A DNA stretch of 64,000 nucleotides from Candidatus Latescibacterota bacterium (GTDB lineage: Bacteria; Krumholzibacteriota; Krumholzibacteriia; WVZY01). Position numbers and translations under genes: made by a program. Under the pieces are notes generated by a model. That model did not search any database, was not told the DNA's origin, and worked only from the letters and a program-made list of their open reading frames with translations. The stretch spans positions 70,190 through 134,189 of the forward strand of contig WVZY01000057.1 of the NCBI GenBank assembly GCA_011772205.1, in the 5' to 3' direction. Positions 52,835-59,576 of this stretch are shown here, piece after piece; within the stretch, counting starts at the first letter, position 1, and each line of letters starts with the position of its first letter.

Positions 52835-52863
52835 TTGACTTTTCATCAGTTACGGTGTATTTT
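52835..52863 (+). promoter_or_regulatory. Candidate sigma70-type promoter for the protease-barrel gene
   Basis: TTGACT (52835-52840), a 17-base spacer and TATTTT (52858-52863) lie just after the YhaN-like gene and about 105 bases before ATG 52968. Spacing is ideal. Confidence 0.6.
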
Positions 52864-52967: not shown

Positions 52968-55900
52968 ATGAGAAATTTCATTTTTTTTATTAGCCTCGTT
53001 TTGTTTCTCTGTCCGTTATGGCCGGATGACGCCTTTTCGTATAACAACACCTCCCTCAAGTGGAGAACCATCGAGACCGAGCATTTCGATATCCACTTCC
53101 ACCAGGACACCCAGTGGACGGCGCGTGAGATCGCGCGCGTTGCCGAAGAAGTCTACCCGCATATCACCGGGCTGTATCACTACGAGCCGAAGGGCAAGAT
53201 CGATGTGGTCGTCAGGGATACCGACGACTACGCAAATGGAGTGGCTTTTTATTACGACAACAAGCTGGAGATCTGGGCAACCAACCTCGAGTTCTATTTT
53301 CGCGGGACCACGCAGTGGCTCCGAAACGTCTTTACCCACGAATTCACCCACATCATCTCGATCCAGGCGAGCATGAAGTTCCCGCAGCGAATTCCTGCCA
53401 TTTACCTCCAATGGATCGATTTTGAAAAGGAAAGGCGCTCGGATGTGCTCACCGGCTATCCGAGCCACATCGCCTCCTATCCCATTGCCGGCGCGGCAAT
53501 GGCACCGTGGTTCGCCGAAGGTGTGGCGCAGTACATGGCGCCTTCGAAACAGTACGACTGCTGGGACACCCACAGGGATATGATCCTCCGTTGCGGCGTG
53601 CTCGAAGACGACATGCTCACCTATGACGAGATGGGTTTCTTCGGAAAAAACGGGATACGGGGAGAGCAGGTATACGACCACGGTTTCGGGCTGGTCAATT
53701 ATATCGCCTCCAAGTACGGGCCCGACGCGATCAATAACATTGCGCATGAGCTGGGCTCGATCAGGCGGTTGACCATAGACGGCGCGCTAAAGAAGGTGAC
53801 GGGCAAGCCGGGAAGTGAGCTGTACGACGAATGGAAATCGGCGATGCACGAGCAATACAGTTCGGTGGCGGCAGGCATCAGAGAAAACATGAGGCAAGGA
53901 AGCGTGCTAGCGGGTGACGGGTATCTCTCGGTATTTCCGGCGTTCAGCCCTGATGGTGAGCGTATCGCGTTTCTCTCCAATAAGGGAAGCGACTTCGGAT
54001 CGACGTCTCTATATATCATGGATAGGAGCGGGGAAGGGCGAAAACATCTCAAAAGCGGTGTGAACTCCTGTGCCTCTTTCTCGCCGGACGGGAGGAAGCT
54101 CCTCTATTCCAAGAAAGGCAAGATCGACTGGTACGGCTCCCGTGTAAACGACCTGTATGTATATGACATCGAATCCGAAGAGGAGAAACGTCTCACGCAC
54201 GGTCTCAGGGCGAGCGACGCCAGTTTCTCACCGGACGGGAGCGACATCGTATGCGTCCTGAACGCAGACGGCACGCACAAAATCGCGCTGGTGAGCGGAG
54301 ACGGGAAAAGCGTCCGAGAAATTTTCGCCGGGGAAAAGGGAACACAGTTTTACGCACCGCAATTTTCACCGGACGGAGCGAAAATCCTCTTTGGAATATT
54401 CACTAGAGGCACCCGTGATGTTGCTGTGATCAACCGGGATGGCGGCGATTTTGAATATGTGCTCAGAACGCCAAATGATGAGCGCGAGGCCCAGTGGTCC
54501 AGAGGTGGTAGCTGCATCGTATTCTCTTCGGACCGCACCGGTGTATTCAACGTATATGAAATGGATCTCGAAACAGGGCGGGTCTATCAGTTGACCAACG
54601 TGATCGGGGGGGCGTTCATGCCCGCGCTGGCTGAAAGGAACGGTGCGCTTGCCTATTCGAGCTACCGTGCAAATGGCTATAGTATAGCGCTTCTCGACAC
54701 GCCATCGTCTCCGGTTGCCGAGCTCGGTAGGGATACATATCAAATTCGAACAACCCCAAACGATCCGTGTACAACGCTTAAAAGCGCTCCTCTCGAAGTA
54801 GAGAAGGACGTCGAAGCCGACAAGGTTTCCGAAGGAAACACTCACCGTATCCTCAGGCATGATGCGATAGGATCTGATCCTGCAACCGAATTGGCCGAGG
54901 AAGCGAATCCTCCCGAGCCAGGGCCGTACAAACGGTCGTTTACGCCGTTCCAGTTCTTTCCTCGATTCATCGTGTACGAACGTACGCCGCGGATCGGCCT
55001 GTTCATGGCAAGCAACGAAGTGCTCGACAAACAAAACTTTTTCCTCGGCGGTTCAATCGGGACGAACTCGGAATTCGATGCGTTTTTTCTGTACGAACTC
55101 AGGCAGCTCTATCCAACGTTGTTTGCCGATATCATCAGGCTTCGCGAGAAGTACGACGACCGGGCGGTTTTCGGGAATGAGGTGTGGGAACTCGGGCTCC
55201 GGTACGACCTGTGGCAGGCAGATCTCGGGCTTCGGCTCGAGTTCGAAGAGCCCTTCTCTATTACGAATCGGAACGTATTCTCCCTATTCTATACCCATGG
55301 CGAGTACAGCGTTCACATCGATGCCGAGATCTTCAACTATGGGAAACTCTTCGCCCGGGACAATGCCGGGTGGAAGTATTTTATCGGGAATGACTTCACC
55401 GCGAGTTATCACTACAAGAGCATCTCCCGGGCAGTTGACAGCGACATCAATCCGAGAGGTGGAAGGGAGTTCACCATCGAGTACATGAGGGCATACGACG
55501 AGCTGTTTACCAGCGGCGAGTTCGCATACGGATTCAATCCCATCTTTGATAAAAATAACTACAATTTGTATTCGCTGCAGTGGACCGAATATGTTGGGCT
55601 CCCCTATCTTCGCCATACGCTTCAGCTCAAACTGTATGCCGCCGCGATCGACACGCGGGTGGACGATTTCTTCTGGATTTACATTGGAGGCCGCGATTAT
55701 CTCAGGGGCTATACGTACTATAGCATCGGTGGACGCAAAGCGTTGCTCGGGAGCGTCACGTACCGTTTCCCCATCTGGCGCAGGATTAACAAGCAGTTCC
55801 TCCATTTATATGTGCGGGATCTCTACGGCAGCATCTTTTACGAAGCTGGAAACGCATGGAACGAGGATAAGCTAAAGACCACCGGTTACGAGAAAACGAT

Positions 55901-56075
55901 TGGATATGAGGCGCGGCTGTTGTTGGGATCCTTTTATACGTATCCGACATCGATCAGCGTCGTCGCCGCGTACCCCTTAAATGAAGTGATTTTCAACGAC
56001 CCCGTGTTCGGCGAGCTCCCGATCGTCCATAAGAAGGAGTGGCGGTATTATGTGACGGTGGGATTTGAGTTTTGA
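52968..56075 (+). CDS. Outer-membrane metalloprotease / TolB-like propeller / beta-barrel fusion protein
   Basis: This 1035-residue exported protein has a signal peptide (about 1-24, FFISLVLFLCPLW). A gluzincin-type peptidase domain follows, with zinc motif H124-EFT-H128 and third ligand E184, in WFAEGVAQY. From about 305 to 570 there are TolB/WD40-like propeller blades (FSPDGERIAFLSNKG, FSPDGRKLLYSKKG, FSPDGAKILFG). From about 660 to the end comes a Bam/Omp85-like barrel rich in alternating aromatic strands, ending in the aromatic YVTVGFEF. ATG 52968 is chosen because an upstream in-frame TTG lies at the expected transcription start. Processing or insertion of envelope proteins is a plausible role. 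Confidence 0.85.
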   Translation: MRNFIFFISLVLFLCPLWPDDAFSYNNTSLKWRTIETEHFDIHFHQDTQWTAREIARVAEEVYPHITGLYHYEPKGKIDVVVRDTDDYANGVAFYYDNKLEIWATNLEFYFRGTTQWLRNVFTHEFTHIISIQASMKFPQRIPAIYLQWIDFEKERRSDVLTGYPSHIASYPIAGAAMAPWFAEGVAQYMAPSKQYDCWDTHRDMILRCGVLEDDMLTYDEMGFFGKNGIRGEQVYDHGFGLVNYIASKYGPDAINNIAHELGSIRRLTIDGALKKVTGKPGSELYDEWKSAMHEQYSSVAAGIRENMRQGSVLAGDGYLSVFPAFSPDGERIAFLSNKGSDFGSTSLYIMDRSGEGRKHLKSGVNSCASFSPDGRKLLYSKKGKIDWYGSRVNDLYVYDIESEEEKRLTHGLRASDASFSPDGSDIVCVLNADGTHKIALVSGDGKSVREIFAGEKGTQFYAPQFSPDGAKILFGIFTRGTRDVAVINRDGGDFEYVLRTPNDEREAQWSRGGSCIVFSSDRTGVFNVYEMDLETGRVYQLTNVIGGAFMPALAERNGALAYSSYRANGYSIALLDTPSSPVAELGRDTYQIRTTPNDPCTTLKSAPLEVEKDVEADKVSEGNTHRILRHDAIGSDPATELAEEANPPEPGPYKRSFTPFQFFPRFIVYERTPRIGLFMASNEVLDKQNFFLGGSIGTNSEFDAFFLYELRQLYPTLFADIIRLREKYDDRAVFGNEVWELGLRYDLWQADLGLRLEFEEPFSITNRNVFSLFYTHGEYSVHIDAEIFNYGKLFARDNAGWKYFIGNDFTASYHYKSISRAVDSDINPRGGREFTIEYMRAYDELFTSGEFAYGFNPIFDKNNYNLYSLQWTEYVGLPYLRHTLQLKLYAAAIDTRVDDFFWIYIGGRDYLRGYTYYSIGGRKALLGSVTYRFPIWRRINKQFLHLYVRDLYGSIFYEAGNAWNEDKLKTTGYEKTIGYEARLLLGSFYTYPTSISVVAAYPLNEVIFNDPVFGELPIVHKKEWRYYVTVGFEF

Positions 56076-56116
56076 GCTTGGTTCTGCATTTTTGCTAATA
56101 TCTAAGTCGAATCATA

Positions 56117-56151
56117 CCGTGCCCTTTGTTTTGATGGAGGGCGCGGTTTTT
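56117..56151 (+). terminator. Rho-independent terminator after the protease-barrel gene
   Basis: The stem CCGTGCCCT (56117-56125) pairs with AGGGCGCGG (56138-56146), with one G-U pair, followed by TTTTT (56147-56151). It starts 41 bases after the stop codon. Confidence 0.85.
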
Positions 56152-58482: not shown

Positions 58483-59250
58483 CTACTTTGGCTCTCCGCC
58501 CGTGGTCGTCTTGAGAATCGTCCCACGCTCTCCGACGGTCCACCCCGTGTTCGCATCCACAAAGAAAACGGAACGGATGAATGGCGTTGGGATGTTCTGA
58601 GGCGCCCATGTCGCCCCGCCGTTGGCGGTTTTGTGGATGGTTCCCTTAGAGTAATAACCCACGCCCACAGCCCATCCCGTGTTCGCATCGACGAAGAAAA
58701 CGTCGTTGAACCGCCTGGGCACGATCGTCGCGGGCGAGAGTTCGACCCACGTCGCGCCCCCGTCGATAGTACTGAGGATGGTTTCTTCACTTCCGACCGC
58801 CCACCCCGTGTTCGTATCGACAAAGAAAACCGCGTTGAGCCGGGCAGATGTACCACTGGACTGGGACGCCCATGTCGCGCCTCCGTCAATGGTTCTAAGA
58901 ATGATACCTCCACTTCCAACCGCCCATCCCGTATTGGCGTCAACGAAGAAAACGGAGTAGAGAGAGTTTGATGTTCCGCTCGCAGGGAGCGTCCACGTGG
59001 TCCCTCCGTCCGTGGTTCTAATGATGGTGCCCGCACTGCCAACACAGACGACTGTATCGGCGTCGACGGCATGGACACCCTCGAGGAACTCGCCCGTGGG
59101 TAGCGGGTGTTGCCGGAACCAACCGGGATCGGCATCGGCTCCATTTCCATTCGGCTTCACGCCGTCGTCCCCGCAGGAGTAGGATAGGAGCGCGAGAAGA
59201 ACGCAGGCCAAGAGCGCCGGCGTTGACTTGTGAGGTGGTTTGCCAGAAAT
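58483..59250 (-). CDS. Lipoprotein with YCF48/BNR-like beta-propeller repeats
   Basis: This 255-residue surface or periplasmic lipoprotein has a signal peptide ending LLALLSYSC, then five or more repeats of about 41 residues of the type VFFVDANTGWAVGSGGIILRT followed by DGGATW. These are BNR/YCF48-like propeller blades. Proteins of this type are usually binding or assembly factors. No standard start codon fits. AAGGAGG (59263-59257) lies 6 bases before ATT 59250, which I take as the start; an upstream TTG at 59316 has no ribosome site and would spoil the signal peptide. The blade count suggests a partial propeller that may pair with another protein. Confidence 0.82.
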   Translation of the reverse strand: MSGKPPHKSTPALLACVLLALLSYSCGDDGVKPNGNGADADPGWFRQHPLPTGEFLEGVHAVDADTVVCVGSAGTIIRTTDGGTTWTLPASGTSNSLYSVFFVDANTGWAVGSGGIILRTIDGGATWASQSSGTSARLNAVFFVDTNTGWAVGSEETILSTIDGGATWVELSPATIVPRRFNDVFFVDANTGWAVGVGYYSKGTIHKTANGGATWAPQNIPTPFIRSVFFVDANTGWTVGERGTILKTTTGGEPK

Positions 59251-59576
59251 GGCGAGCCTCCTTCGAATACGACGAAGGTGCAAGTTTTGGTTAAATCCCG
59301 CTGCGGCTGAAGGCAAGGATGTGGCTCATGTGTTGGCGGATCCAGTATATCACATCAAGACCGAATTTCCCAGCGTCTCCCAATCCCAGGGAACGATCGG
59401 GCGCCTGCCCGCAGGAATAACCTGGCGGAATGCGCGAAAACGGTCCGTCGGCTGGATTTCTCTTGACTGGCTAGTGAGTCCTGAAATCAGCTGCCAGAGA
59501 CCTGACTTGGATAATTGGAGAGGATTAATGCATAGGCACGTGAGGCGAACCTCGGGGCACTCGAATCTCTGCCAGA
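59251..59576. other. Intergenic region between the propeller lipoprotein and carB
   Basis: Apart from the Shine-Dalgarno sequence of the lipoprotein gene at 59257-59263, I see no gene or clear signal in these 326 bases. The lipoprotein promoter (minus strand) should lie here. Confidence 0.4.

Follow-up and report, generated by a model that had tools for sequence, protein, structure and literature searches.

A gluzincin-type peptidase, a TolB-like propeller and an Omp85-type barrel predicted in one bacterial protein, with a possible link to type IX secretion

What might a protein do in which a peptidase, a Tol-like propeller and an outer-membrane barrel are joined in a single chain? The question is raised by an open reading frame in the window analysed here, by which we mean the whole 64-kb stretch of DNA from a Candidatus Latescibacterota bacterium. 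The frame occupies positions 52968-56075 of the plus strand, to which all coordinates below refer unless marked otherwise, and from its ATG start it encodes 1035 residues followed by a stop codon. An upstream TTG would extend the product to 1068 residues; the hydrophobic leader begins at the ATG. Residues 1-24 (52968..53039, with the boundary placed by eye) look like a Sec leader and include a hydrophobic helix at residues 2-17 in the structural model; relatives also carry a leader, the sequence of which is not conserved among them. An earlier interpretation made from the letters alone (hereafter the sequence-only reading) had proposed that a HEFTH peptidase, a propeller and a C-terminal barrel form one exported chain. 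The AlphaFold2 model of the full protein, built from 79 sequences (the window protein and those of 78 of the 80 loci kept), has a pLDDT of 88.4 and a pTM of 0.88 and consists of a peptidase domain, a propeller of 24 strands and a barrel of 16 long strands that matches BamA. The fold searches agree with the model, and the proposal has therefore held; its exported nature is indicated by the leader and the barrel, and neither of the refuting outcomes named with it, a model that lacks the barrel or a product that is not exported, was obtained. Relatives that span the whole protein, at about 35-53% identity, eliminate the possibility that the three-domain reading is a product of chance or an artefact of the frame, and we consider the three-domain anatomy to be well supported.

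The peptidase domain (residues 25-305; 53040..53882) is predicted to be of the gluzincin type. Its zinc-site motif HEFTH (residues 124-128; 53337..53351) and the sequence WFAEG (residues 181-185; 53508..53522), which contains the second-helix glutamate E184, are placed by the model on the helices 117-135 and 180-189, and H124, E125, H128, W181, E184 and G185 are invariant in 79 of 79 aligned rows. The 80 loci were selected with two patterns that lie within the peptidase domain, so that the conservation at residues 199-205 and 233-241 is biased, and the six invariant residues lie outside both patterns. In a Pfam search, Peptidase_MA_2 was matched below the curated cut-off both by the full protein and by the domain alone (E value of 3.9e-5), and all 50 of the family peptidase domains scanned matched this model at E 0.1 or better. 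A search of the peptidase profile against solved structures by sequence returned no match at E 10. When the domain was modelled alone from 50 sequences (pLDDT 88.8, pTM 0.86), the best fold match was lugdulysin of family M30 (Z 17.0 over 240 aa at 5.2 A), and further matches were found to chains of M1, M9 and LTA4 hydrolase (LTA4H) at Z 13-14. The features that characterize clan MA, namely HExxH and a downstream Glu ligand, were found in 79 of 79 rows, and the gluzincin fold is present in the model. The domain thus has in common with the gluzincins (lugdulysin of M30, collagenase of M9, M1 and M61) the HExxH motif, a Glu on the next conserved helix and the predicted fold, whereas it differs from them in that it is predicted to be anchored to the membrane by a barrel. 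The gluzincin site appears to be intact, which favours an active peptidase. Moreover, conservation is highest in the peptidase domain (its mean identity to that of the window protein is 49%, compared with 38% for the propeller, 32% for the barrel and 11% for the linker), which argues for a working enzyme.

The peptidase is followed by a predicted six-bladed TolB-like propeller (residues 306-590; 53883..54737), in which the 24 strands span residues 312-586 and fit six blades of four strands each. Pfam recognized PD40 repeats in the window protein with an E value of 1.9e-14, and the closest fold in the PDB was that of TolB (3iax_A; Z 27.2 over 245 aa at 2.5 A). The NCBIfam TolB model gave 125.1 bits against a cut-off of 343.15, and the score of the curated TolB family was therefore not reached. 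The six-bladed propeller is shared with TolB of the Tol-Pal system; however, the window protein does not have the N-terminal domain of TolB, and its propeller is joined to a peptidase and a barrel. Between the propeller and the barrel lies a linker (residues 591-650; 54738..54917) that is predicted to be disordered, with pLDDT values below 50 at residues 602-643.

The C-terminal region (residues 651-1035; 54918..56072) ends in F and is modelled as a barrel of the Omp85 type, the 16 strands of which extend over residues 662-1032. Its best match in the PDB was BamA of D. radiodurans (8xnb_A; Z 23.2 over 321 aa at 4.3 A), and BamA of F. johnsoniae (Z 22.6), FhaC (Z 21.2) and SAM50 (within Z 21-23) were also matched. 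By sequence the barrel is weak: the NCBIfam BamA model matched residues 752-975 with an E value of 0.01 and 14.2 bits against a cut-off of 297, and Pfam returned no match at E 0.001 for the window barrel alone. In Pfam, the barrels matched no family other than PF01103 (Omp85), which was found in 15 of 72 members, the window's not among them, and the family barrel profile matched TamA chains only when it was compared with the PDB. A generic porin can be ruled out because both the fold and the profile point to Omp85. The sequence LRGY (residues 912-915; 55701..55712), which we take to correspond to the [VIL]RG[FY]-type motif of Omp85 loop 6, is conserved among the 79 rows, where the second position is R in 44, K in 34 and Q in 1, the third is G in 68, S in 6 and A in 5, and the fourth is Y in all 79. 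With BamA and TamA the window protein shares the predicted 16-strand fold, the (R/K)GY motif and an aromatic C-terminus; in contrast to them, it has no POTRA domains and scores far under the curated BamA threshold. No POTRA domain was seen in the AlphaFold2 model, in which the barrel is preceded by the peptidase, the propeller and the linker. The Omp85-type barrel is described as the defining feature of the Omp85 superfamily (PMC4104836), and on the basis of the predicted structure the window protein is a member of this superfamily without POTRA domains.

The joining of a propeller to an Omp85 barrel has been published before. According to the part of the work of Heinz and Lithgow (2014; PMC4104836) consulted here, the WD40-Omp85 proteins carry a TolB-like propeller on the N-terminal side of an Omp85 barrel and have no POTRA domain, as is the case in the window protein, and the N-terminal beta-propeller joined to an Omp85 barrel that characterizes them is present in our model. 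However, the main text of that article does not contain the word peptidase, and the parts of it consulted draw no link to the type IX secretion system (T9SS), the comparison having been made by description. A second partial likeness is to PG1058 of the Porphyromonas gingivalis T9SS, which, as described in the part of PMC5053529 consulted, is also a multidomain protein with a TolB-like propeller but is a predicted lipoprotein with TPR, CRD and OmpA-like domains in place of the peptidase and barrel. In the literature searched, in which subscription journals were thinly covered, we found no description of a peptidase-propeller-Omp85 family or of its T9SS linkage. What we have not seen in print within that literature, and what is new relative to WD40-Omp85, is therefore the peptidase domain and the linkage to T9SS genes.

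The family is distributed across the FCB phyla. Of 58 related genomes, 33 gave a match at E <= 1e-20, the source genome included, and in a wider genome collection at least 591 stretches were matched and at least 555 relatives confirmed, from which the 80 loci were kept. The phyla represented include Krumholzibacteriota, KSB1, Latescibacterota, Ignavibacteria, Calditrichota, Neomarinimicrobiota, Gemmatimonadota, Bacteroidota and Chlorobi, among others. A tree was computed from 104 sequences, with partial sequences left out together with L125 and L136, the apparent counterparts of L092 and L063. The tree places the window protein in a clade of 20 (support 0.98), and in the sister group of this clade T9SS linkage prevails. 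It follows that the linkage either disappeared in the window's clade or arose in its sister. The source genome also encodes a second peptidase-propeller protein on contig C34 (L002, L004), which has 1094 residues, is about 24% identical and contains HExxH, and comparably divergent relatives were found in other genomes (L036, L037).

The linkage itself is evident from the genes that surround the family. Among the 80 loci, a large protein with FG-GAP repeats and a sorting tail is encoded nearby in 57, DUF5683 in 54, PorV in 48, a C25/PorU-like protein in 32 and SprA in 7. When the count was restricted to loci with sufficient flank for each gene, so that the denominators differ, the sorting-tail protein lay upstream in 53 of 57 loci outside the window's clade and DUF5683 downstream in 48 of 55, and PorV and the C25/PorU-like protein were present in 45 of 49 and 31 of 46, respectively. 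The median gaps between the gene and its two neighbours are 63 and 16 bases. In 13 of 14 further regions, 2 of which are possibly identical to loci among the 80, the order is PorU-like protein, PorV, sorting-tail protein and peptidase-propeller-barrel gene, followed by DUF5683 in 12 of 13; SprA also occurs in 3 of the 14, and one region (L131) has no cluster gene. Neighbour identities were assigned by Pfam for examples, and in the one example scanned the upstream protein matched FG-GAP and Por_Secre_tail with no match to M6, which makes it a probable T9SS cargo. This protein contains a GLPDL-like stretch (seen at L039:2039-5314, L054:2543-5641 and L068:1984-5163) that we assume to stand where M6 peptidases have HExxH; its His-Glu pair seems to be lost, and the protein may be a dead peptidase. 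The DUF5683 protein is linked to the peptidase-propeller-barrel family across several phyla, and no paper naming both DUF5683 and type IX secretion was found in the literature searched.

The window's own clade is different. Where the flank was sufficient, the sorting-tail protein was found in 0 of 9 of its loci, DUF5683 in 0 of 8, PorV in 0 of 6 and the C25/PorU-like protein in 0 of 5, and none of these four genes was found at the 11 loci of the clade, a list that comprises the tree members and L038, a sequence of insufficient length for the tree that was placed by identity. A tblastn search for T9SS neighbours across the whole 64-kb window gave no match. The gene is instead preceded by a metallophosphatase and an AAA protein, a pair resembling SbcCD, and followed by a sulfatase. 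In the window's sister families it lies between hflC (6 of 9) and thyX (7 of 8); hflC was not found beside the closest relatives (L038, L049 and L071). A conserved, different neighbourhood with hflK/hflC and thyX near the gene was seen at L040, L045, L051, L056, L069, L077 and L086. Elsewhere in the window, at 58483-59316 on the minus strand, there is a protein of repeated VFFVDANTGWAVG units that resembles, by eye, a Ycf48-like repeat protein.

The sequence-only reading had also regarded the gene as an independent unit with its own promoter and terminator. Both sites do exist: a promoter-like TTGACT-17-TATTTT lies at 52835..52863, and a hairpin of 14 pairs followed by a T run, the longest of 4 terminator-like sites, lies at 56116..56147. 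However, the counts of such sites equal those in shuffled sequence (2 vs 2.3 and 4 vs 4.3), and neither is above chance, so that they cannot serve as proof of independence. Independence may apply at most to the window locus; most relatives' genes are embedded between T9SS genes.

The co-occurrence of the family with T9SS was evaluated in 118 genomes of the phylum to which one Melioribacteraceae genome belongs, with the protein called at E <= 1e-20. SprA is present in 91 of these genomes and the protein in 55, and all 55 carriers of the protein have SprA; the protein is found in 0 of the 27 SprA-negative genomes and is missing from 36 of the 91 SprA-positive ones (Fisher 1.5e-9, phylogeny ignored). 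Among the 55, eight match weakly (E 1e-22 to 1e-30) and resemble the paralogue type, and in the strict set without them SprA accompanies the protein in 47 of 47 (Fisher 9.2e-8, phylogeny ignored). Because 36 SprA-bearing genomes are without the protein, it does not belong to the universal parts of the T9SS. In the window's class, SprA (which exceeds its curated cut-off in 55 of the 58) and PorV are each present in 58 of 58 genomes, including 25 without the protein, and co-occurrence within this class is therefore uninformative. In the source genome, SprA exceeds its cut-off, and PorV and PorU exceed theirs and adjoin on contig C8. The same genome contains a relative of the sorting-tail protein with a PorV-family gene directly after it (C69:20233-24501), and the T9SS sortase model was matched in it 52 times, in most cases over the end of the model alone, a pattern that points to numerous putative sorting-tail proteins.

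The source genome also gives no support to the proposal that the protein could act without separate Tol or Bam partners. It encodes BamA above the cut-off (508.6 bits) and a full-length TolB-like protein below the 343-bit cut-off (314 bits), and the modelled chain has no POTRA domain. The window protein is therefore not a stand-in for Bam or Tol, and its role as a replacement for BamA or TolB was rejected.

The reading that we favour among those considered, with a probability of roughly 0.4, is that the protein is an outer-membrane-anchored gluzincin that serves the T9SS as a processing or quality-control factor. We infer this role from gene context, and the window locus is without that context. 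According to this proposal, the barrel would anchor the propeller and the zinc-dependent peptidase to the outer membrane via the flexible linker. By analogy with the N-terminal domains of Omp85 proteins, the peptidase and propeller would be placed on the periplasmic face, where the propeller, like TolB and BamB, may bind a partner or client, and the peptidase, if active, would trim or remove proteins en route to or through the machinery composed of SprA, PorV and PorU. Such a role would be one of processing or quality control rather than that of the translocon itself, and in the window's organism, in which the gene is unlinked and SprA, PorV and PorU lie elsewhere in the genome, the same job would be expected. 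It is also possible, again by analogy, that the Omp85 barrel inserts or exports substrates.

An alternative that we consider unlikely is a T9SS-independent factor for general outer-membrane assembly or quality control, a BamA-BamB-like fusion with a peptidase, the role of which could resemble that of BepA, a peptidase of E. coli. The placement between hflC and thyX in the sister families, where there is no T9SS gene, and the retention of the gene without T9SS linkage in the source genome are consistent with such a factor, and WD40-Omp85 proteins are read as BamA-BamB-like fusions in the part of Heinz and Lithgow (PMC4104836) consulted. However, the strong T9SS linkage in other clades argues against it, as does the absence of the protein from all of the SprA-negative genomes of one phylum, every one of which needs outer-membrane assembly.

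A slightly less likely alternative is a surface protease that exports itself, with the barrel carrying its own peptidase and propeller out in the manner proposed for PlpD (type Vd). An exported enzyme and an Omp85-type barrel in one chain would correspond to PlpD as described in the part of PMC4104836 consulted, and the predicted disordered linker of about 60 residues between the putative passenger and the barrel would suit this arrangement. However, two folded domains would need to traverse a 16-strand barrel, and the T9SS linkage would have no clear reason. Moreover, patatin-type Omp85 proteins (type Vd) have a POTRA domain between the passenger and the barrel, and the model of the window protein has none. 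Finally, a nutritional or remodelling enzyme of the outer membrane, whose proximity to T9SS genes would reflect no more than a general locus for surface proteins, is improbable: the adjacent upstream gene does encode a probable cargo (FG-GAP repeats, sorting tail) and no machine part, but PorV, C25/PorU and, in 7 of the 80 loci, SprA are machine parts that share the cluster.

The proposed processing or quality-control role may be extended, in a form that we hold to be somewhat unlikely, to an overlooked and ancient outer-membrane component of the T9SS that would process or license clients at a point between SprA, the translocon, and PorV/PorU. Such a component would be absent from several SprA lineages, as in the 36 genomes noted above, perhaps including the classic T9SS models, and this absence, if real, would explain why screens there have missed the protein. 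Omp85 proteins insert proteins into outer membranes or move them across, and an Omp85 protein with a protease and a Tol-like propeller that is conserved across the FCB phyla and has its gene among those of the T9SS is a concrete candidate for an as yet undescribed step in type IX secretion.
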